NCBI GenBank assembly: GCA_023150875.1
Contig: JAKLKC010000009.1
Location: forward strand, 1-64,000
Source of the DNA: Myxococcota bacterium
Lineage (GTDB): Bacteria > Myxococcota_A > UBA796 > UBA9615 > JAKLKC01
Length of the DNA: 64,000 nt
Direction: 5' to 3'
Made by a program: the position numbers and the translations under genes. Under the pieces are notes generated by a model. That model made no database searches. It worked only from the letters and a program-made list of their open reading frames with translations, and was not told the origin of the DNA. Below are positions 1,432 through 14,976 of this stretch, one piece after another (position 1 is the stretch's first letter; the number at the start of each line of letters is the position of its first letter).

Positions 1432-3012
1432 TCACGCCCTCCCGTCCAGGTCACCCAGGATCTCCTCGATCTGTTCCAACGCGCTCCGCAGGTCCTCCCC
1501 GATCTCGGCGGCGATCTCGTCCGGCTCGGCCAGGTTCTCCGCATCCAGCAGGCTGTCGTCCTTCAGCCAGAACAGGTCCAGGCTGCACTTGTCGCGGGCG
1601 ACGATCTCGTCGTAGTCGTAGGCGCGCCAGCGCCCCTCCGGCGTGGCCTCGCTCCACGTCGGGGCCCGCTCGTGGGGGGCCCCGGACGTGTAGAGGGCTA
1701 CGAACTCGTCGAGATCGGCCCGCTTCATCGGGTTCGTCTTCAGCGTGAAGTGCTGGTTCGTCCGCAGGTCGTAGACCCACAGCCTGCGGGTCCAGTGGTT
1801 CGGGCTGGCTGGCCTGCGGTCGAAGAAGACGACGTTCGCCTTCACCCCCTGGGCGTAGAAGATCCCGGTGGGCAGGCGCAGGAGCGTGTGGACGTCGCAC
1901 TCGGCGAGGAGCCTGCGGCGGATCGTCTCGCCGGCCCCGCCCTCGAACAGCACGTTGTCGGGCACGACGACGGCGGCGCGGCCGTGGATCCTGAGCAGGG
2001 ACTTGACGTGCTGGACGAAGTTGAGCTGCTTGTTGGTGGTGGTCGCCCAGAAGTCCTCGCGCTCGTAGGTGATGCTCTCGCGGGCGGTGTCTCCGTCGTC
2101 GGCGACGACGAGGATGCTCGACTTGCGGCCGAAGGGCGGGTTGGTGAGCACCACGTCGAAGCGTTCGGAGCCCAGCTCGCGCAGGCCGGCGTCGGTGCGG
2201 ACGGGGAGGCGCCGGTCGATCTCGGCGTGGGCCTGCTCGGGGCTCTCGCCTTCCGCGATCAGCGCCTCCCGCAGCGTCTCGAGCTCCTGGGGCGTCGGGC
2301 CGACGTTGTGGAGGAGCAGGTTCATCGCGCACAGGCGGGTGACGCCCTGGACGATCTCGACCCCGCGCAGGACGTGGAGGCGCAGGTGCTCCCGCTGCTC
2401 CCGGGTGAGCTCCGGGTGCTCGGTGGTGAGCCAGTGGTGCGCGGCGAGCAGGAATCCGCCGGTGCCGCACGCGGGGTCGATGATCGTCTCGCCGGGGCGC
2501 GGGGCGACGCAGGCGACCATCGCGTCGATGAGGGGGCGCGGGGTGAAGTACTGCCCGGCCCCGGACTTGGTGTCCTGGGCGTTGCGCTCCAGCAGGCCCT
2601 CGTAGGCGTCACCCTTGACGTCGGCGCCGACCATGACCCACTGCTCCTTGTCGATCAGGTCGCTGACCAGTCTCTTGAGCTTGGCAGGATCCTGGATCTT
2701 GTTCTGCGCCTCGCGGAACACCAGCCCGAGCAGCCCGTGGTGCCTGCCGAGGTGCTCCAGCAGGGCCCGGTCGAACATCTGGAGGAAGTCGCGCGCCGTG
2801 CTGACCACCCCCGCAGGATCGGAGTCGGGGATCTGGATGTATAGGACACGCTCGCGCTGAGTGGGTTGAAGCGCCCGCTGCACGAGGGTGGTCTTGCCGA
2901 TGCGGCGGCGGCCCGACACCTTCACGAAGAACCAGCGTCCCCGTCCGAGCACTCCAGACAGGCGCGAGAGCTCCTCGCGGCGACCGTAAGAGCCCCATTC
3001 CTGCTTGCTCAT
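1432..3012 (-). pseudogene. hsdM: Chimeric gene: P-loop ATPase N-terminal fragment fused to type I DNA methyltransferase HsdM
   Basis: The frame is open for 526 residues but joins two unrelated parts. Residues 1 to about 80 look like the start of an archaeal-type AAA ATPase, with GRREEL and the Walker A motif GRRRIGKTT (residues 34-42). From about residue 81 the sequence is HsdM: the KIQDPAKLKRL helix, SGAGQYFTPRP (150-160), methyltransferase motif DPACGTGG (179-186) and catalytic NPPF (291-294). A normal HsdM starts with its own helical domain, which is missing here. The N6-adenine methyltransferase core is complete, so activity cannot be excluded, but assembly with HsdS may be impaired. Recombination is inferred at about 2770. 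The start ATG and its surroundings belong to the ATPase part. The 3' end (1439-1509) recurs at 6611-6681. Confidence 0.75.
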
Positions 3013-3088
3013 CGCGGCAACCGATCCATAAGGAAAAGTCTTTTACTTTGTTCGGCGACAGGACTCCGCCCCCCGCGTGCGGGTCGGC

Positions 3089-3213
3089 TCATGCGCTGGC
3101 GCCCCGGCCGAGACGGGACAGTTCCAGCTCGGCGTCGGCCAGCGCTGCGTCGGTGGGCACCAGGCGGACCTCAAGGGCTCGCTTGAGGATGGCCTGCCGA
3201 AACCGGGCACAGC
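3089..3213 (-). pseudogene. Remnant of the 3' end of a type I specificity gene (hsdS)
   Basis: Read in the correct minus frame, about 40 codons give the sequence FRQAILKRALEVRLVPTDAA and then end at a TGA (3089-3091). This matches the last conserved helix and the GRLVPTEAA-type segment of HsdS proteins, including the intact hsdS at 7735-9288. No start codon or target-recognition domain remains. It lies directly upstream of the hsdM-like gene, where an hsdS or neighbouring restriction gene would be expected. It is interpreted as the tail of a second, largely deleted restriction locus. Confidence 0.65.
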
Positions 3214-3315
3214 GGCCTCCGTCGTCGCGTTATCGGACAAGTACCGGGCGGCCTCGGCTCGGACAGCGGCCGAGGAGTGCCGGAGGCGAGCGATGGCTTC
3301 CTGGCTCGTATTCAT
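3211..3315 (-). pseudogene. Start of a HEAT-repeat-like gene, truncated by fusion to the hsdS remnant
   Basis: An ATG at 3315 is preceded by a good ribosome-binding site (AGGAG six bases upstream) and opens a frame beginning MNTSQEAIARLRHSSAAVRA, which has the alternating pattern of a HEAT-like helical repeat. After about 35 codons the frame runs out of phase into the hsdS tail, giving a compositionally odd C terminus. The natural start signal followed by an abrupt change suggests a real gene cut by a deletion at about 3211. Its function is unknown. Confidence 0.45.
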
Positions 3316-3562: not shown

Positions 3563-6553
3563 TCACGCCGCCTCCCAAGGGAAGCACTGCCGCTCGGTGA
3601 GCGAGAGGTCGTGGGTAAAGTGCTCGAAGCGCTCGTCGAGGAACCGCCGCAGGGCGTCCATCTCGGGACTCGAATGGTTCAATCCCAGGCCCCACGCCTG
3701 CAGCGCGCTCACGAGGGAGGCACGGAGGCACAGGCGGACGGACTGCGCAAAGGACTCCGACCAGGGCGGAACCCTGTAGTTCCCGGTCCTCGCCTGCCGC
3801 ATCCCGTCGCGCATGGCCTCTTGCACCGCTCGATCGCTCCTACCTCGACGCTTCAGGTCGTTCGCGTAGTCCCTCACCGCCGCCGGGGCGAGGGCCGAGG
3901 CGATCTGCCAGTCGAGCCAGCCATCGGTCCGAAGCTCGGTGACGAGCCGGTGAAGCTCGGGACGCGAGCCGTGTGCGTCCAGCACCGGTCTTGCGGAACG
4001 GAACCCACCGTCGTAGCGGTTCCGCAACTTCTCCCCGGCGCTCGCGCGGTCGAACAGCGGGCTTGTCCCACCCTGCCAAGGGAGGCCGGTTGCGGGAGCC
4101 GATTCGAGATGCACACCGGGGCCGGTGGGCGACGGTGCCGAGACAACCTCCCGCCAGGTGCCGAGCGGGCGGAGGCTACCTCGTCCTTCGAGCACGCCCC
4201 CGCCGACGAACAGCCCGTCCGGGATCACGTTGCCTACCAGACGCGGCAACTGGTCCGCCAGATCGGGATCGACCGATACTGCCTCGATGACCTTCGTGGC
4301 GGCGAACAGGGCCACGGAGCGGAGATCGTGCGTGGGATCCTCCCGCGACTCCGACGCGGGCAGCATGACGCGAAACCCGACCCCGCGTAGTGCGGGCATC
4401 GGCTGGACTGGCACCTGTCCCTCGCGCCACGGCACAACCTCGACAGCGACGGTCGTGGGCAGCAGGTGCCTGTAGCGCTTCGCCAAGCCCGCCTGAACGA
4501 GTTGGAGGACGGCGGCCAGTTCGGTGCCGAGGGCCTCAAGCTCGTAGTCCCGACGCCAGGTCACTTCCCAAGTGAGCCCGAGGGCCTGCCATCGCGCCCG
4601 CCGGGTGGAGGCGAGATCCGCCAGCGGGGGGCCGTGCAGAGGCCAGTCCGCGCCCACCACACCCTGAGCGATGCCCTGCGCCTCCCATGTTCCTCGCACC
4701 GTCTCGGCGAATCGCGCGAGATCGTCGGCGAGGTCCCAGGACTCGACCACCTTCTCGCCCCACGCGCGGAACCCAGGGGCAACGAGATCGCCGGCTACAA
4801 GCATGTTCAAAAGGTAGAACGCGCCTTGCAGCAGCCGAGCGTGCTTCTCGAAGTTCCAAGGGTCAGGCGCGTACTCGAGGTGAAGCGCGAGTCCGAGGCG
4901 GTAGGTGTGGAGGGCGGTTGCCCACTCGCCGGAGAGATACTCGACCTCGGCCAGGTGGAACACCGCGTCCGTGAGCAGCCCGCCGTGTTGTCTGTCGCCT
5001 GTTCGGTTGCACACGGCCGCCACGTCGTAGAGGAGGCGCTTTGCAGCCCAAACGAGACCCAGGCGTTCCACGCACTGCTCCGCAAGCATGGACGCCAGCA
5101 GGCTTCCTCGAATCCGATCCCCGTTGTGCCAGTGTCGCTTCGCTCCGAGCATCGGTGAGAGGGCGTCGAGGTACCGCTCGGCCTTCAAGAAGCCCACCGC
5201 GCGATCACGCATCGTCGCCGCGAGTCCCTCGCTTGCATGACGTTGCTCGCAGGCCCGATCCAGGCGTTCTACGAAGGCGTCGTAGTCGGGCGACGCCACC
5301 AGCGCGGGCGCGATGTTCGCCAGGAGCCCACCAAGTCGGAGCAGGGGAAACGAAACCAGCTTCTCGCCCACGTCAAGCGCGCGCGTCCACCAGCGAAGTG
5401 TCTCCGTCGCGAGCGAGGCCAGGACGTCTTCGCTGAGTGGCGTGTCACCGAGCGAAGCAGCGCTGAACTCCACGAGCCCACGGGCCACCAGCAGGTCGGA
5501 GAGGACCAAGGGTCCAGGTGGGCTTTCGATCTTGGCCTCGATCCACGTGATGAGGGTCTGGAACAGGTCGCGAGCCACCGTGCGGTCGAGGGCGATGTGC
5601 CCGCATGCGACCCCGCCCGCGAGGTAGGAGGCGAAGCACTCCAGGTCGCGGGCGAGCCCGAGGTCGTCAGCCGAGACGAGGCCGGCGACGTACGCAGGAA
5701 TGTGCGCCTCGAGCCCGCACCGATCACGGCCGCGAAGCAGGTACACGAACGCCTCGTAGAACGCCCGCAGGCCATATTCGGTGGTGAAGCCGCCGGGCGC
5801 ACCCCAAAGATCGGACAGCAGGTCCAGCCAGAGACCGTCGTCCGCCTCAAGGCCATCGGTTTCCCAAGCGTGGCGAGCGCAGCGCACTACCAGATCGAGC
5901 TCTGCGTGCGTCGCGATGTACCGCTCGGCGGGGTTACCGAAGCGGCGCTTCGCATCCTCGTACCATCCCGGTCGAACCGGTCCGCCGGCCTCGTGCCCGA
6001 GCATCCCCTCTGGGACCGATAGGTAATGCTGGGCCAGCCAGCGGTTCGCCGGGTCCGCCAGCAGCTCGGCGATCGCGCGTTGGTCGACGATCTCCAGAGA
6101 CAGGCCGTGGTCGGTCCTCGCCCAATCCTGAAGGTCGTGGCGAGTCGCAGGCGCGAGTGTCACCGAGGCTGCGTAAAAGTATACGACCGTGGGCTTCGGC
6201 TCCCGCGCACACGCTGTCGCTACGTCGTGCTTGACCTTCCTCGCGAGGTCCGCGTCGCTGCCCTTCTGCGTGGTGCACGCGAACACGAGCGTGTCTGTGG
6301 TGGTCACCCATCGGGTGAAAATCCGAGTGGCGTTGCCCCCCGCGCCTTCGATGCGGAAGCTCTCGAAGTCCCTCCCCTGGTCGCCGCCAGCCGACACGGG
6401 TCCGGTCGGCGGGAGCAGGTGGGAGGCCACGGTGGCGCGGGCGACTCGGAAGCACAGCTCCTCAAATCGGTGGTGAGCGTTCTCCTCGCCCAGCATCCCG
6501 AGGCGGTACTGGATGAACTTCGCGATCTCGTCCGGGTTCGTCAAGGAAGTCAC
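3563..6553 (-). CDS. Large unrecognised protein with restriction-endonuclease-like N terminus; candidate defence effector
   Basis: This 996-residue protein starts at GTG. Residues 20-180 look like a PD-(D/E)xK nuclease-type domain: an early helix with FEEL (30-33), GGDQGRDFE (56-64) where a catalytic Asp is expected, a beta strand ending in FACTTQK (91-97) in the place of the (E/Q)xK motif, and then a strand/helix pair typical of Mrr-like folds. Residues about 190-680 are helix-rich and TPR-like by composition, with no Walker motifs. I do not recognise the C-terminal 300 residues. No signal peptide or membrane segment is seen, so it is probably cytoplasmic. It sits inside a restriction island four bases after the truncated ATPase gene, which fits an antiphage role, but that role is inferred. 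Activity has not been shown for this family as far as I can tell. Confidence 0.6.
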   Translation of the reverse strand: MTSLTNPDEIAKFIQYRLGMLGEENAHHRFEELCFRVARATVASHLLPPTGPVSAGGDQGRDFESFRIEGAGGNATRIFTRWVTTTDTLVFACTTQKGSDADLARKVKHDVATACAREPKPTVVYFYAASVTLAPATRHDLQDWARTDHGLSLEIVDQRAIAELLADPANRWLAQHYLSVPEGMLGHEAGGPVRPGWYEDAKRRFGNPAERYIATHAELDLVVRCARHAWETDGLEADDGLWLDLLSDLWGAPGGFTTEYGLRAFYEAFVYLLRGRDRCGLEAHIPAYVAGLVSADDLGLARDLECFASYLAGGVACGHIALDRTVARDLFQTLITWIEAKIESPPGPLVLSDLLVARGLVEFSAASLGDTPLSEDVLASLATETLRWWTRALDVGEKLVSFPLLRLGGLLANIAPALVASPDYDAFVERLDRACEQRHASEGLAATMRDRAVGFLKAERYLDALSPMLGAKRHWHNGDRIRGSLLASMLAEQCVERLGLVWAAKRLLYDVAAVCNRTGDRQHGGLLTDAVFHLAEVEYLSGEWATALHTYRLGLALHLEYAPDPWNFEKHARLLQGAFYLLNMLVAGDLVAPGFRAWGEKVVESWDLADDLARFAETVRGTWEAQGIAQGVVGADWPLHGPPLADLASTRRARWQALGLTWEVTWRRDYELEALGTELAAVLQLVQAGLAKRYRHLLPTTVAVEVVPWREGQVPVQPMPALRGVGFRVMLPASESREDPTHDLRSVALFAATKVIEAVSVDPDLADQLPRLVGNVIPDGLFVGGGVLEGRGSLRPLGTWREVVSAPSPTGPGVHLESAPATGLPWQGGTSPLFDRASAGEKLRNRYDGGFRSARPVLDAHGSRPELHRLVTELRTDGWLDWQIASALAPAAVRDYANDLKRRGRSDRAVQEAMRDGMRQARTGNYRVPPWSESFAQSVRLCLRASLVSALQAWGLGLNHSSPEMDALRRFLDERFEHFTHDLSLTERQCFPWEAA

Positions 6554-6556
6554 AGG

Positions 6557-7738
6557 CTACCTCGCCGGATGGATGCCTCTGGCCTGGTGGTGCTCTCGGC
6601 CCATCACCCGCTCCCCTCCAGATCCCCAAGGATCTCCTCGATCTGTTCCAGCGCGTTCCGCAGGTCCTCCGCGATCCCGGCCCAGCCACCCCTGGAGGCT
6701 CGACGGGTCGGGCCGGACCAGCCGGGACCGTCCCTCCTCGCGCTCGACGACGACCACCTCATCGGGCTCGAAGTGGTCGAGGAACGCCGTGGACTGGGTC
6801 GCGAACAGCACCTGGGTGAGGCGGGAGACGGATCGGGCCAGCTCCGCGATGATCCGGACGGCGGCCGGGTGCAGCCCCAACTCGGGTTCATCGATGGAGA
6901 TGAACCGGGGCAGCCGCGAGGTGGGCTGGGCAAGCGCGGTGATGAGCGCGATGGCGCGGAGCGTCCCGTCCGAGAGCTGGTGGACCCCGAACCGCTGGTC
7001 TTGATCGTCGATCCAGTCCAGCCGGACGGCCGCGCTCCCGTTGCCCGTCGGGATTGGAGAGAGCGCCTTGACGCACGGGGCGACGCGGCTGACGATCCGG
7101 TTGATCCGCCTCCACGCCTTCTGGTCGGCGTCCTCCACGCTCCCTTCGAGGCGCGCGAGATACGCCGCGAGGTTGCTCCCGTCCGACCGGAGCCCTCGGT
7201 CGTCTTCGGCCCGGGCGCGGGTACGCAACGCCGACGTCATCGAAGTATCGTGGAAGTGGAAGAAGGTGAGCTGGGACAACCAGTGGTTCACCGTCTTGGC
7301 GGTGGCGTCGTCCGCCCCGGCGTCCTGCAACCGCGACTCCCAGTGACCGGCACCGAGGCTGGACATCCGCGGCTCGACACTCGACCCGCGGCCGTGCCCG
7401 ACGGATTCATCCAGGTACAGCAGCCGGTCCCCCGCGGCGAAGCCGAGCCGCGCAGCGTAGCGGTTCCTTCCCCCCTTCAGGACGAAGTCCAGCTCGATCT
7501 CGATCACCTGTGTCCGCTTCGGGCCATAGTGGAGCAGCGACGACGCGCCCCCCGATTCACCCACGAAGCGCTGGAGCGAGCCGGTGCGCATGAGCGGCAC
7601 CATCCGAAGGGCTCGGAGGAGGTTCGACTTGCCCGACCCGTTCGCACCGATCAGGACGGTCAGTCGTCCGGGGTGGAGCGTGACGTCCGCCAGCGAGCCG
7701 AACCCGGCGATGTGGATGCGTTCGAGAGCTTCGGTCAT
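6557..7738 (-). CDS. AAA ATPase (COG4637/RecF-like AAA_21 type) with C terminus replaced
   Basis: The 393-residue protein has an SMC/RecF-like ATPase core: Walker A GANGSGKSN (31-39), signature-like LSDGTLRA (255-262), Walker B ISIDEPELGLHP (280-291) and FATQST (312-317). Proteins of this kind commonly sit beside hsdS. The start ATG overlaps the hsdS stop (ATGA), so translation is probably coupled. Family members usually end with a short segment after the conserved WL pair. Here, from about residue 353, the frame enters an hsdM 3' end read out of phase and finishes in an Arg/Gly-rich tail. The ATPase core is therefore intact, but the C terminus is non-native. It is probably cytoplasmic and may be partly functional. 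Confidence 0.75.
   Translation of the reverse strand: MTEALERIHIAGFGSLADVTLHPGRLTVLIGANGSGKSNLLRALRMVPLMRTGSLQRFVGESGGASSLLHYGPKRTQVIEIELDFVLKGGRNRYAARLGFAAGDRLLYLDESVGHGRGSSVEPRMSSLGAGHWESRLQDAGADDATAKTVNHWLSQLTFFHFHDTSMTSALRTRARAEDDRGLRSDGSNLAAYLARLEGSVEDADQKAWRRINRIVSRVAPCVKALSPIPTGNGSAAVRLDWIDDQDQRFGVHQLSDGTLRAIALITALAQPTSRLPRFISIDEPELGLHPAAVRIIAELARSVSRLTQVLFATQSTAFLDHFEPDEVVVVEREEGRSRLVRPDPSSLQGWLGRDRGGPAERAGTDRGDPWGSGGERVMGREHHQARGIHPAR
6604..6681 (-). pseudogene. Detached copy of the hsdM 3' end
   Basis: In its own frame this segment encodes AEDLRNALEQIEEILGDLE and a stop, the same ending as the hsdM-like gene at 1432-3012. By direct comparison about 63 of 71 bases match between 6611-6681 and 1439-1509. 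It is fused to the truncated AAA ATPase and marks where a second hsdM gene once ended. Confidence 0.8.
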
Positions 7739-9288
7739 GGGGAACTCCTCCCGCTCGAGTCTTGGCTCACCGTGGCTGCGGCTTGCCAGGGCGTCGTGGT
7801 ATCGGCTCCATTCCGTGGGGAGACACCGGCTTCCTCGGCCAGAACCAGCCGGCCATCGAAGGCGTGCTTGAGGATGGACTGGCGGAGGCGGGCGCAGCGG
7901 GCGAGGGTGGCGTCGAGGGTGGTGTCGAGGGCGTCGAGGACGGAGAGGCGGCGGTCGACCTCGGCGACGATGCGGTGCTGCTCGGCGAGGGGGGGGAGGG
8001 GGATCGCGATCTGCCTGATCCTGTCCTGGCCGATGTTTCTCATCGACTCCTGGTTGCCGGTCGCAAGGGCTTCAACCTGCCGGCGGCCATGCTGGCTACG
8101 CAGGACCCAAAGAGCCCAGCGTCGGAATGCTGCGGGCAAGTTCAGGCGCAGGATCTTGTCGCTGAGCATTGTGTGTCGTGTGACACGCTCGGCGATGACA
8201 ACGGCACCGACAAGCTCGATGGTGTTCGCTCGACTCATGAGGAGGTCCCCCCGCCGGATGAAGTAGTCCGGGTTGATGAGGCAAGGGTCATGGACCGTCT
8301 TGGCCTCGTCCTCGTTGTAGTCCCCCCACGTAACCGCACTCACCTTCACGATCCCGACTTCGTGGGCCACCGGTACGGTGCTGTCCGCCACGAAGCTCTT
8401 GCCGGCCTCAATGCCGTACAGCAGGGCGTCCATGGTCGCCCAGCACCATCCCTCGGGCAGCCCCGGCAACCCCTCCGTCTCCGGCCCCACCGGCTCCTTG
8501 TACTTGCCCCGCACCCCGCTCGCGGCCCACGCCGCCCTGCGCTCGGCGAGGATGCGACCGAGGAGCACCGACGCCGGCTCGTAGTCGCGGCCCTCGGCGC
8601 GGGCGAGCGCGGCCTCGGTGGGCACCAGCCGGCCCTCGACGGCGGCCTTGAGCACGCTCGCGCGGGCGCGCTTGACGTTGGCCTGGGCGCGGGTCAGCGA
8701 GGCGACGGCGGCGTCGAGGCGGGAGAAGTGGGCCTCGAGGGCGGCGACGACTTCTCTTTGGTGGTCCAGGGACGGCAAGGGCCGTTCAATCGATCGGATG
8801 TCGTCGAGCCCGAGGCCCGCCTTGGTCTCCCCACGCCGAAGTTCGCGAAACTGCCGCTGACCGCCTGACTCCGAGTCAAGGTACCACCCGAGATAGCGTG
8901 GGAGTACCGCCGATGTTGGCCGTGCGAGTGCAACGTGCTGGTTAACATAGACCTCAGGAACGCCCTCGGGAACGACTCCTAAGATGCCCAGGTCTGCGGT
9001 AATCGACACGAGGACATCGCCAGGCAGCGTGCGAGTGCGGATGCTCTCGGTTGTTGCCGGCGGGTTCACCCGCTGCGCCGACTGCCACGCGACGCTGAGG
9101 GTCCCGCGCTGCAGATCGCCAATTCGGATGAAAGGAGCGCCATCGTCAGAGTAGTACTTGGTCCATCCGCGTGAACCGCTGGTCACGAACGACAGCAACT
9201 CACCCATCGACACGAGACTCCGGCCAGGAGGTGAGGCACGCTCGGTGCTCCCGCCACCCCCTCCCGAGCCTGTCCCTCTCCGCTCCAC
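7735..9288 (-). CDS. hsdS: Type I restriction-modification specificity subunit HsdS
   Basis: The 517-residue product has the standard HsdS layout: a first target-recognition domain (about 28-150, starting at MGELLSFVTSGSRGW), a conserved helical spacer (about 165-235, with VLKAAVEGRLVPTEAA), a second recognition domain that starts near LPEGWCWATM (about 275), and a C-terminal conserved helix (LRQSILKHAFDGRL). It would bind two half-sites of an asymmetric DNA target and position HsdM. The GTG start lies three bases after the DUF1016 stop; an ATG at 9207 is an alternative that removes a Gly-rich leader. The gene appears intact, unlike its hsdM and hsdR partners. Confidence 0.9.
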   Translation of the reverse strand: MERRGTGSGGGGGSTERASPPGRSLVSMGELLSFVTSGSRGWTKYYSDDGAPFIRIGDLQRGTLSVAWQSAQRVNPPATTESIRTRTLPGDVLVSITADLGILGVVPEGVPEVYVNQHVALARPTSAVLPRYLGWYLDSESGGQRQFRELRRGETKAGLGLDDIRSIERPLPSLDHQREVVAALEAHFSRLDAAVASLTRAQANVKRARASVLKAAVEGRLVPTEAALARAEGRDYEPASVLLGRILAERRAAWAASGVRGKYKEPVGPETEGLPGLPEGWCWATMDALLYGIEAGKSFVADSTVPVAHEVGIVKVSAVTWGDYNEDEAKTVHDPCLINPDYFIRRGDLLMSRANTIELVGAVVIAERVTRHTMLSDKILRLNLPAAFRRWALWVLRSQHGRRQVEALATGNQESMRNIGQDRIRQIAIPLPPLAEQHRIVAEVDRRLSVLDALDTTLDATLARCARLRQSILKHAFDGRLVLAEEAGVSPRNGADTTTPWQAAATVSQDSSGRSSP

Positions 9289-9291
9289 CGC

Positions 9292-10470
9292 TCAGTCCCT
9301 CCCCGGGTCGCGACCGACCGTCGCTTCCGCCGCCTCGCGCGCCTCGTGGAGCCACTGAACCAGTCGCTCGCGGGTCGGCAGCTCGAGCAGGTAGCGGGAG
9401 ACGAGAACGTCGTCGTCGATCGCGGTGGCGAACTGCACGACCTCCTCGTCCTTCGCGGCGCAGAGCAGGATGCCGATGGGCGGGCTCTCGCCCTCCAGGG
9501 TCGCTTCCGCCGCGAGGTAGTTCAGGTAGAAACGCATCTGCCCGGCGTCTTGCGGGGTGAACTCTCCGCTCTTGAGGTCGATGGCGACCAGGCAGCGCAG
9601 GCGCCGGTGGAAGAACAGCAGGTCGAGGTGGTGGTGCCGGTTTCCCAGGGTGACCCGATACTGGCGCGCCACGAAGCAGAACTCCCGCCCGAGCTCCATC
9701 AGGAACGCTTGGAGGTGGTCGAGGATGGCCCCCTCCAAGCTCGCCTCGTCCACCATGCTCGGCAGGCCCAGGAACTCCAGGACGTAGGGGTCGCGCACCA
9801 GCGCCTGCGGACGGTCGTCCACGCGGCCCTCACGCGCCACCGCCAGGACGGCATCCCGGTCGGTCGAGAGACCGACGCGCTGGTAGAGCATCGTGCTCCG
9901 CTGGCGGATCAGCTCGCGCGTCGTCCAGCCCTCCTTCACGCAGTGAAGCTCGTAGAAGGCCCGCTCCAGCGGGTCGTCCATCCGCGCGAACTCGAGGAGG
10001 TGGGTGAAGGTCAGCTCGGTGAACAGGCGCTGGTGCCAGGGCGAGTCGCGCCAGGGGATGGCGGGTTGCGGAGATCCGGCAGGCGCCTGCCGAATCGGCA
10101 TCGAAGGGCCGTGGATCGGGAGGGAATTGGCAGGCGCCTGCCCGATCGCCGTCGCCTCCGGCAGCAGGCTCGCCGCCAGGGAGGCCGCCTCCAGCGCGGG
10201 AAAGGCCAGCGCGACCTGGCGGTAGTTCCGGAGGTTCCTCGCGGAGAGGCCGTGGTGTCCGTCCTCCTTCAACACCGACGCGAGCCTGTCGAGGAGCGCG
10301 GTGCCGTAGGCGGCGCGGTCCTCGCCGTCCTGCTCGTACACGACGATCCAGGCCCCGATGAGCCAGTTGCGCAGGCAGAGGATCTGCTGCGCGCGGCGGC
10401 CCGTGGCGCGCAGCGCGGCGTGGTCCACGGCGCCGATGTGCCGCACCAGCGTGGCGAAGGACCCGGCCAT
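9292..10470 (-). CDS. YhcG/DUF1016 family PD-(D/E)xK nuclease
   Basis: The 392-residue protein has the DUF1016 N-terminal helical region followed by a C-terminal PD-(D/E)xK domain: HLDLLFF (D283) and then VAIDLKSG (D298, K300) are the catalytic positions. Members are often found inside type I restriction operons, usually between hsdR and hsdS as here. The role is unsettled but likely concerns nucleic-acid cleavage or quality control in defence. The ATG overlaps the hsdR remnant stop (TGATG), and hsdS follows after three bases, giving one operon. Residues about 108-132 contain a duplicated QAPA segment encoded by two copies of a 14-base palindrome, which may be an in-frame insertion. Confidence 0.85.
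   Translation of the reverse strand: MAGSFATLVRHIGAVDHAALRATGRRAQQILCLRNWLIGAWIVVYEQDGEDRAAYGTALLDRLASVLKEDGHHGLSARNLRNYRQVALAFPALEAASLAASLLPEATAIGQAPANSLPIHGPSMPIRQAPAGSPQPAIPWRDSPWHQRLFTELTFTHLLEFARMDDPLERAFYELHCVKEGWTTRELIRQRSTMLYQRVGLSTDRDAVLAVAREGRVDDRPQALVRDPYVLEFLGLPSMVDEASLEGAILDHLQAFLMELGREFCFVARQYRVTLGNRHHHLDLLFFHRRLRCLVAIDLKSGEFTPQDAGQMRFYLNYLAAEATLEGESPPIGILLCAAKDEEVVQFATAIDDDVLVSRYLLELPTRERLVQWLHEAREAAEATVGRDPGRD
10082..10149. repeat. Pair of GGCAGGCGCCTGCC palindromes inside the DUF1016 gene
   Basis: Two copies of the perfect 14-base palindrome GGCAGGCGCCTGCC lie about 54 bases apart, each followed by a related ATCG-containing segment. They encode the repeated QAPA motif in a variable linker of the protein. 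They may be small REP-like insertions tolerated in the frame. Confidence 0.5.
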
Positions 10471-11602
10471 CACCCCACCAACTCCCGGTTCAACTCCTCC
10501 ACGATCCCCTCCAGCTCCTCCCCGGACACGCTCCACGCCCTCCCCAGCCCGCCCCGCTCCACGAACGGCGTCTGGTCGAAGTCCTCCATCCGCACCTCCA
10601 GGTCCACCACGATGCGGTCGCGGATCAGCTCCAGCCACCCCCGCTGCCCTTCCGTGAACCTCCTCCCCCGGTTCGCCTGCTGGGCCAGCCAGTTCTCGAA
10701 CCGCGCCGCCGCCTGGTCCGCGTAGCTCACCAGCTCCGGCTCCACCCCCATCGCATGCCGCGCGAGGCTGATCAGGTCCGTCAGCAGCCGTCCTCGAGAC
10801 GCGCCCCTCACCCGGTCCTTCTCCACCCGCTCGTAGGCCGCCCACAGCGCCTCGCCGGTCCACCGGCGCGGCGGGCGCTGGAGGGCGGCGACGAGGTCCA
10901 TCAACTGCCCCCGGGTGAGGCGCTGGGCGTAGGGGCGCTCGTAGAGCACCATAAGCGCGTCGATCTCGTCCCGGTGCTCCTTGCAGAACGCCTCGAACTC
11001 CCCGATCAGCGCCCGGTCGGCGTCGTGGTCGGGGGCGAGATCGGCCCGCGCGCCGCTCCGGGTCACGTCGTCCAGGGTCACCACGTCCAGGATGACGTCC
11101 TGGGCCTTGCGGACCTCCAGCAGCGCCTCGCAGAGCTTCGGGTCGTAGGCGATGGGGGCGGCGGCCTCCTCCCGGAGCGCCTGCTGCGCGGCCCGCACCT
11201 GGGCCTCGGTGACCGCGGCGCCCTCGGGGAGCCCCGCCATCCCGCGGGCGCGGGCGTCCTCGGCGTCGGGGTCCAGGCGGTCGTAGAGGAAGGGCAGGGG
11301 CCGCACGGGCACCTGCAGGGGCTTCGGGGCCCGGGCGGCGTAGTCGCGGGTCTGCGCCTCGACGCTGGACAGCGTCACGCCGGCCTTCTTCGCCTCGACG
11401 ACGCCGACGAGCCGGTTGCCGAGGAACAGCAGGTAGTCCGCCGGGCCGGCGGCGGTCTGGAACTCGCGGATCGCCACGCCGGGTGCGGCGGCGAGGTTCA
11501 TCGCGGCGCGGTCCTGCACGTCCCAGCCGGCCGCGACCAGCATCGCGTCGATCTGGCGGCGAGCTGCTCGGGCTCGCCTGCGGGGGCCTTGTCCTGGACC
11601 AT
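10470..11602 (-). pseudogene. hsdR: Broken type I restriction subunit hsdR lacking the helicase motor
   Basis: The frame keeps the HsdR N-terminal nuclease domain (ADYLLFLG then VVEAKKAG, the PD-(D/E)xK core, followed by RPLPFLY) and then jumps straight into the HsdR C-terminal helical domain (LDPDAEDARARG, DEIDALMVLYERPY). The roughly 500 residues holding the DEAD-box translocase are absent, an apparent in-frame deletion at about 11280. Near the 5' end a natural start (ATG at 11600-11602, MVQDKAPAGEPEQLAA) lies one frame away from RQIDAMLVAAGW, so there is also a frameshift near 11555. The gene cannot make a working restriction subunit. Confidence 0.8.
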
Positions 11603-11806
11603 GGGCGGCCGTGCTTCCTCGGGGCCGAGCCGGTCGGCGGGGGGAAGGGGATGTTCCCGCGCAGACGGCCTCCCTGGCAAGGGCGCGGCGGAGATCCGGG
11701 CGGGATCGCCCGGCCCCGCGGTGCCGGGGATCTCCAGACTCCACCGCCGGGGCGCCGCGGCTCAGGGGACGGCTCGGGTGCGCCACGCCGCAGGGCCGAG
11801 TCCTAA

Positions 11807-14049: not shown

Positions 14050-14976
14050 TCAAGCCCCCTGGCCGGTCTTCCCCCCCCTCCGCGCCGCCTGGGAGGGGGG
14101 CTCGGCCTCCCGCTCGGGGCGGGCCTTCAGCTCGCCCAGCTCCCGCTCCACCTCCAGGCTCAGCTCCTCCTCGATGGCGAACCGGTCGGCGACGCCCTCC
14201 AGGTAGTCGGACATGCCGCTGGCGTGGGGGTTGGTGAGGATGTGGTGGTACACCTCCTCGAAGGTGTCCGACGCCGACAGCAGCGCCGCCGCGGCGGCCG
14301 TGTCCCGGGCCTTCAGGCTCTCGTGGCGCTGGAGGAGCTTCTCCAGGTCCGCCTTGGCCTTCTCCAACTGCATCCGGTCCGTCGCCGTCCGCGCCCCCTC
14401 CACCTGCCGCTCCACCCTCTTGATGCCGCCTCGCAGCTCGTCGGGGTCGTTGGAGCGGATCCGCTCCCGCATCGCCAGGCGCCCGTGGAAGAGCCGCAGG
14501 AAGTCCACCGTGGCGTCGTCCAGCTTCTCCAGGTCGTAGGCCGTCAGGGAGGTGCCCTTCTGGGCCGCAACCCGGGCGAGGGACTCGAAGCGCTCCCTCA
14601 TGCGGCGGTAGCGCTCCCAGTGGTCGCTCCAGTCCGAGGGGGAGGTCCCGCCCCCCGGGGCGTCGGGATCCCCCGCCCGCCTCCGGATCTCGTCCAGCAG
14701 GTACTGGCGGTGGCGCTCCCGGGCCTCGGCCCTCTTCTTGCGGTCCACGTACTCCCGGAAGACCGGCGAGTCGGGCACGAAGAGGGAGGCGATCCCCGCC
14801 GCCCCGGCGTAGCCGATCATGGGCAGCAGCGCCCAGCCCATCACCCCGCTGGCCACCAGGGCGACGGATCCCAGCACCAGGGAGCCGCACAGGGCGCCCA
14901 GGTTCGCGGGGTGGCCGAGCATCTCCTTGAAGTAGGAGACGTCCTCCGGGTTGGGCGGGCGGCCCCTCAGCGCCAC
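14050..14976 (-). CDS. Membrane-anchored coiled-coil protein, unknown function
   Basis: The 308-residue product starts at GTG. Two hydrophobic segments (about 26-45 and 48-66) form a hairpin near the N terminus, and the rest is charged, helical and largely coiled-coil, ending in a basic tail. I recognise no enzyme motif. It is the last gene of the ABC operon, 19 bases after the ATPase gene, and probably works at the inner membrane with that system. The topology would place the coiled coil in the cytoplasm. Confidence 0.6.
   Translation of the reverse strand: MALRGRPPNPEDVSYFKEMLGHPANLGALCGSLVLGSVALVASGVMGWALLPMIGYAGAAGIASLFVPDSPVFREYVDRKKRAEARERHRQYLLDEIRRRAGDPDAPGGGTSPSDWSDHWERYRRMRERFESLARVAAQKGTSLTAYDLEKLDDATVDFLRLFHGRLAMRERIRSNDPDELRGGIKRVERQVEGARTATDRMQLEKAKADLEKLLQRHESLKARDTAAAAALLSASDTFEEVYHHILTNPHASGMSDYLEGVADRFAIEEELSLEVERELGELKARPEREAEPPSQAARRGGKTGQGA

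Follow-up and report, generated by a model that had tools for sequence, protein, structure and literature searches.

In a 64,000-nucleotide stretch of a Myxococcota genome (the window), one open reading frame (ORF) joins the start of an ATPase of the PDC-S27 family to the catalytic core of the type I DNA methyltransferase HsdM. The chimeric ORF is real, and it very probably arose by illegitimate recombination in a degenerating type I restriction-modification (R-M) and defence island, as wreckage without ATP-dependent activity and with little or no methylation. Of the two readings that the original prediction had offered, wreckage is strengthened because the fusion is unique in the searched genomes and the neighbouring hsdR, AAA_21 and hsdS-tail sequences are similarly damaged, whereas a new methyltransferase that binds ATP is weakened by the missing Walker B and the missing remainder of the ATPase fold. 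On present evidence the ORF does not represent a new enzyme class, and a functional ATP-binding methylase is unlikely.

The architecture first proposed, an ATPase start of about 80 residues with Walker A fused in frame to an HsdM that has lost its normal N-terminal domain and kept a complete catalytic core, was confirmed in the 526-aa minus-strand ORF (Table 1). Pfam places N6_Mtase (PF02384; E = 4.5e-61) at residues 130–457, with DPACGTGG at residue 179 and NPPF at 291, and gives weak AAA matches near the N-terminus; HsdM_N (PF12161) is undetected at E ≤ 1, whereas the intact homologue L036 yields E = 1.2e-11. PADLOC calls the ORF a type I methyltransferase, and its N-terminus matches positions 2–97 only of the 484-position PDC-S27 profile. 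Residues ~81–526 are 74–89% identical to HsdM over 440–450 aa (best 84–89% at the amino-acid level, to intact HsdM of L029 and L030), and residues 1–80 are 75% identical to the starts of separate ATPases, the proteins of L040 and L026, the latter of 488 aa and assigned to PDC-S27 by PADLOC at E = 9e-216.

The junction is equally sharp in the DNA, lying at 2771|2772 with the reading frame retained. On the hsdM side, blastn matches to L030, L031 and L036 stop exactly at 2771, with none above it; on the ATPase side, matches to L026, L027 and L037 stop exactly at 2772, with none below it. Such coincident ends far exceed chance. The junction sequence in the window is GATGTTCGACCGGGCCCTGCTGGAGCACCTCGG, with ATPase sequence to about GATGTTCG and hsdM sequence from about CCGGGCCCTGCTGGAGCACC. 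The parents are unrelated, each is intact in other loci, and they share just a few bases at the junction. Intact HsdM homologues carry about 77–82 residues ahead of this point, with the strongly conserved start S..(I/L)V.KLWSYC..LRDDGLSY.DYLEQL, where the chimera has 80 ATPase residues instead. The chimera shares the catalytic core with both motifs and the C-terminal tail with type I HsdM (StySJI M, 2okc; EcoKI M, 2y7c and 2ar0), the solved proteins nearest to it in sequence (2okc, E = 5e-104; EcoKI, E = 7e-75), but its first ~80 residues are unrelated to theirs and most of HsdM_N is missing. An AlphaFold2 model of the chimera has low confidence (pLDDT 38).

Table 1 Features of the damaged defence locus in the window
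Feature	Position	Strand	Remarks
Fused ORF	1432..3012	minus	526 aa, without internal stop
hsdM from ~codon 80 to natural stop	1432..2771	minus	catalytic core and C-terminal tail, without HsdM_N
PDC-S27 ATPase codons 1–80	2772..3012	minus	start codon and Walker A GRRRIGKT; in-frame join to hsdM
Operator-like palindrome AAAGTAAAAGACTTTTCCTT	3030..3049	minus	17 nt ahead of the fused-ORF ATG
Orphan hsdS 3' tail (RCARFRQAILKRALEVRLVPTDA)	3144..3215	minus	rest of hsdS absent; just upstream of the fused ORF
996-aa protein, family-less	3563..6553	minus	sits between damaged units
AAA_21 ATPase gene (PADLOC HEC-01A)	6557..7738	minus	lacks its own final ~18 residues
Scar of an hsdM 3' tail, the terminal ~75 nt of a second hsdM allele	6588..6681	minus	forms the out-of-frame C-terminus of the AAA_21 gene
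Apparently complete hsdS with two target-recognition regions	7735..9288	minus	Methylase_S PF01420 in two stretches; PADLOC Specificity_I
YhcG-type (DUF1016) PD-(D/E)XK nuclease	9292..10473	minus	PF06250 E = 1e-50, PF17761; PADLOC PDC-S02 E = 2e-109
hsdR remnant	10470..11606	minus	frameshifted by 4 nt near 11555; in-frame loss of ~1.7 kb at ~11281

We searched for further fusions in six frames across 187 relatives and 379 genomes of the same phylum (the two sets overlap; with repeats, 567 genome scans). Matches fell into two disjoint sets, intact HsdM aligning from residue ~68–82 on at up to 88% identity and ATPases of ~490–500 aa aligning at residues 1–81 at up to 74%. No close match spanned both in these 187 and 379 genomes, so the same fusion, sought in related genomes as the original prediction had suggested, did not recur there; a few weak, distant HsdM alignments (31–35% identity) start at residues 26–45. 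Against genomes of 84,980 species, residues 1–81 found 44 loci, 43 of which run on as ATPase beyond residue 80, with no HsdM match in the fetched flanks of those 43; the remaining locus, a weak match, did not align with the full ATPase. Plasmid and phage records held no spanning match, HsdM beginning at residue 72 or later among the matches listed. Viral contigs likewise held no fusion, and their four HsdM genes all have normal starts; three viral-contig loci that apparently matched from residue 45 were rejected on reading, as their HsdM starts proved normal. Homologues using the ATPase segment as their normal HsdM start were sought and not found: intact ones open with the conserved HsdM_N, and we rejected the segment as an alternative start. 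For the fetched loci we also rejected the idea that PDC-S27 genes habitually neighbour hsdM.

The rest of the locus is damaged as well. Intact relatives are ordered hsdR, hsdS, optional cargo genes and hsdM; the window reads, in the direction of transcription, hsdR, YhcG nuclease, hsdS, AAA_21, the 996-aa gene, the hsdS tail and the fused ORF. The hsdR remnant matches residues 16–122 and 674–944 of the 945 in intact HsdR. Its motor domains (123–673) are gone, and with them the intact HsdR of a complete type I R-M system. The frameshift is a 4-nt deletion near codon 16 (CTCGCCGCCAGATC vs CTCGCCCGTCGCCAGATC in L036), and the N- and C-terminal parts stay in mutual frame across the ~1.7-kb deletion. 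Homologues of the AAA_21 protein all match residues 1–352 and then continue as ...DYSL.E...GVIGGRP, whereas the window diverges at GWLG|RDRGGP; L112 has a whole AAA_21 gene upstream of an intact hsdM, from which a ~0.7-kb gene separates it. The sequence that replaces its end (repeat D2) is 84% identical to 1416–1509 and 79–87% identical to the hsdM 3' ends of L029, L031, L032 and L036. The window's hsdM 3' ends are thus not identical (84%), so two alleles of hsdM were once present. Similarly, the orphan hsdS tail (repeat D1) is 74% identical to the hsdS tail at 7829–7900 and matches HsdS C-terminal ends in L029–L033 by blastp.

Two further elements of the region deserve mention. Neither Pfam, PADLOC nor NCBIfam gave a match for the 996-aa protein, and 141 other genomes of the phylum yielded no relative; its N-terminus (GGDQGRDFES...FACTTQKGS) may, judged by eye, resemble Mrr-like nuclease domains. 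A tRNA-Phe gene lies at 14086–14159 (minus strand), ~2.5 kb upstream of the damaged hsdR, and is a possible island integration site.

Comparable loci exist within the phylum. In another genome of the class, L106 (3000–3646) joins the first ~26 residues of HsdR to the last ~110 of HsdM in one open frame, and L103, L107 and L108 carry isolated hsdM 3' ends; L107 looked by eye like an hsdS::hsdM join, of which blastp did not confirm the hsdS part. Breaks leaving hsdM 3' ends are therefore not rare in the phylum. These degraded loci (L106/G062, L103/G004, L108/G049 and L107/G194) resemble the chimera in placing an hsdM 3' end beside, or fused to, part of another gene. They differ in that most of hsdM is gone there, whereas the chimera keeps the whole catalytic core and has a PDC-S27 gene as partner.

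From the junction, the missing parts, the surrounding damage and the uniqueness of the fusion in the searched data, all observed directly, we infer the mechanism of the join and the loss of function. A deletion or rearrangement would have joined the two genes with at most a few nucleotides shared at the junction, one break falling after codon 80 of the PDC-S27 ATPase and the other at ~codon 80 of hsdM. Retention of the frame would have been a one-in-three chance. Similar breaks are present in hsdR, the AAA_21 gene and an hsdS copy of the same decaying island. Translation from the PDC-S27 start should yield an HsdM core that lacks its N-terminal domain and instead bears half a P-loop fold as a cap, presumably unable to close a nucleotide site; such a protein would be expected to have no ATP-dependent activity and to methylate little or not at all. 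Several features count against wreckage: the HsdM core is undecayed, the frame is kept both at the ATPase|hsdM join and across the hsdR deletion, neither hsdS nor the nuclease gene looks damaged, and the PDC-S27 leader palindrome is kept. A recent event would also account for each of them. If it is wreckage, a clean in-frame ORF with two good domain matches would be a one-off join, an example of how gene debris can pass for a new domain architecture in automatic annotation, and the locus would record how a type I R-M island of Myxococcota, with defence genes embedded in it, decays.

To gauge the state of the HsdM part, private changes were counted per sequence over 393–443 codons against intact orthologues. 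The window HsdM has 12–13 private amino-acid changes, within the 5–27 of the intact orthologues, and its ratio of codon positions 1 and 2 to position 3 lies inside the orthologue range, with no shift to positions 1 and 2. An undecayed core would fit either a recent event or an ORF still in use; because the core has not drifted, the fusion is probably recent. There is a small chance that the ORF instead serves as a still-active solitary methylase, through an internal HsdM start or a tolerated cap, with the M2S complex methylating without ATP. R-M systems are known to end up without restriction but with their methylase, and here the core and C-terminal tail are complete, selection is not visibly relaxed, and the same locus encodes an apparently intact hsdS partner (7735–9288, PF01420 in two stretches). 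The lost segment speaks against this reading. No other part of the HsdM family alignment is as regular as its first ~80 residues. In PacII, the N-terminal and catalytic domains build the M–M interface needed for methylation, and substitutions there lower methylation (PMC9613975); in EcoKI, the preference for maintenance methylation resides in the N-terminal ~150 residues (reviewed in PMC12707154). Because of these two roles, loss of ~80 residues is expected to be harmful. Elsewhere in the source genome, the other methylases are distant from the fused ORF, and a search there for an intact hsdM of the same family returned just one distant gene (C55, 37–45% identity).

That the junction was made by the assembler rather than the cell is quite improbable. 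An artefact would be in keeping with the draft state of the genome, which is in 180 contigs, and with the contig end 1.4 kb away from the ORF. However, the junction offers no long shared sequence to confuse an assembler, and the duplicated tails differ (74–84% identity), so they are neither collapsed nor doubled copies. Moreover, there are four separate breaks of this kind, and each would require an error of its own.

The ATPase part bears on the proposed new enzyme. In PDC-S27, described as a defence candidate that awaits experimental validation, an ATPase is joined to a PD-(D/E)XK member (PMC12988326). Walker A (G34–T41) and Walker B (D110 E111 F112 Q113) are kept across 33 full-length relatives, and D110/E111 are invariant in 26 members and at least 95% conserved in the 33. 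The chimera has the same first 80 residues, with Walker A GRRRIGKT and a single deviation, F8S, at columns conserved in at least 95% of the 33; unlike PDC-S27, it lacks ~84% of the protein, residues 81–488 being wholly absent, including Walker B, the remaining ATPase and the winged-helix and PD-(D/E)XK nuclease regions. In a good model of the L026 protein (pLDDT 80, pTM 0.72), Walker B lies on the strand at 106–110, helices and a wing appear at ~258–323, and a helix/strand region at ~392–457 fits a PD-(D/E)XK fold. Among solved folds, ATPases of the Orc/Cdc6 and NB-ARC/Avs4 kinds come nearest, at low overall TM-scores, and a search with the PDC-S27 profile found no solved relative by sequence. 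Judged by this model, the chimera's ATPase piece would be the first part of a P-loop fold rather than a nucleotide-binding domain, and because the fragment stops ~30 residues short of the invariant Walker B, a working nucleotide-binding domain is not expected in the chimera. We therefore give very little credence to a new ATP-binding or ATP-regulated type I methyltransferase with a P-loop cap in place of HsdM_N. The open frame, the intact catalytic motifs and Walker A, the complete-looking hsdS nearby and the lack of excess amino-acid changes would suit such an enzyme; set against them are the missing Walker B and remaining ATPase fold, the lost N-terminal domain, the broken sister genes and the lack of a second example.

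The fused ORF has also kept the leader of its ATPase parent. Directly 5' of PDC-S27 start codons in several phyla we found a 20-bp palindrome with the consensus AAGGTAAAAnnTTTTACCTT; the copy in the window has two mismatches to AAGGTA-N8-TACCTT. Within the 105 nt that precede the conserved W6 codon, and with up to 3 mismatches allowed in 12 positions, we found it at 35 of 49 PDC-S27 genes, compared with 4% of mononucleotide shuffles; related genes are counted separately in this set, and one gene is counted twice (L028 = L046). Carriers include Proteobacteria, Planctomycetes, Bacteroidetes, Verrucomicrobia, Gemmatimonadetes and Myxococcales (examples are L026, L049, L054, L060, L063, L065 and L072), and cyanobacterial members mostly lack it. 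Some variants are altered symmetrically in both halves (AAGATA/TATCTT, AACTTA/TAAGTT). A reasonable guess is that the palindrome is a putative self-control operator bound by the winged-helix region of PDC-S27 itself, and since the leader is retained, the fused ORF may be transcribed. That the chimera is expressed from this leader under the self-control palindrome, as a methylase whose N-terminal control domain was swapped for a P-loop cap, is a reading we consider extremely improbable; if true, methylation would be coupled to the control that governs a defence gene's expression.

The literature searched contained no earlier report of the PDC-S27 palindrome, and its occurrence in several phyla points to testable self-regulation of an uncharacterised, widespread defence candidate. 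A genome-wide search of 94 relatives (at most one mismatch) yielded 18 sites in 11 genomes, two of them directly before PDC-S27 starts (G010 and G023) and most others unlinked to the family. An exact copy at 1500–1520 of L116 precedes an ORF whose out-of-frame text, by eye, resembles a shortened PDC-S27 gene.
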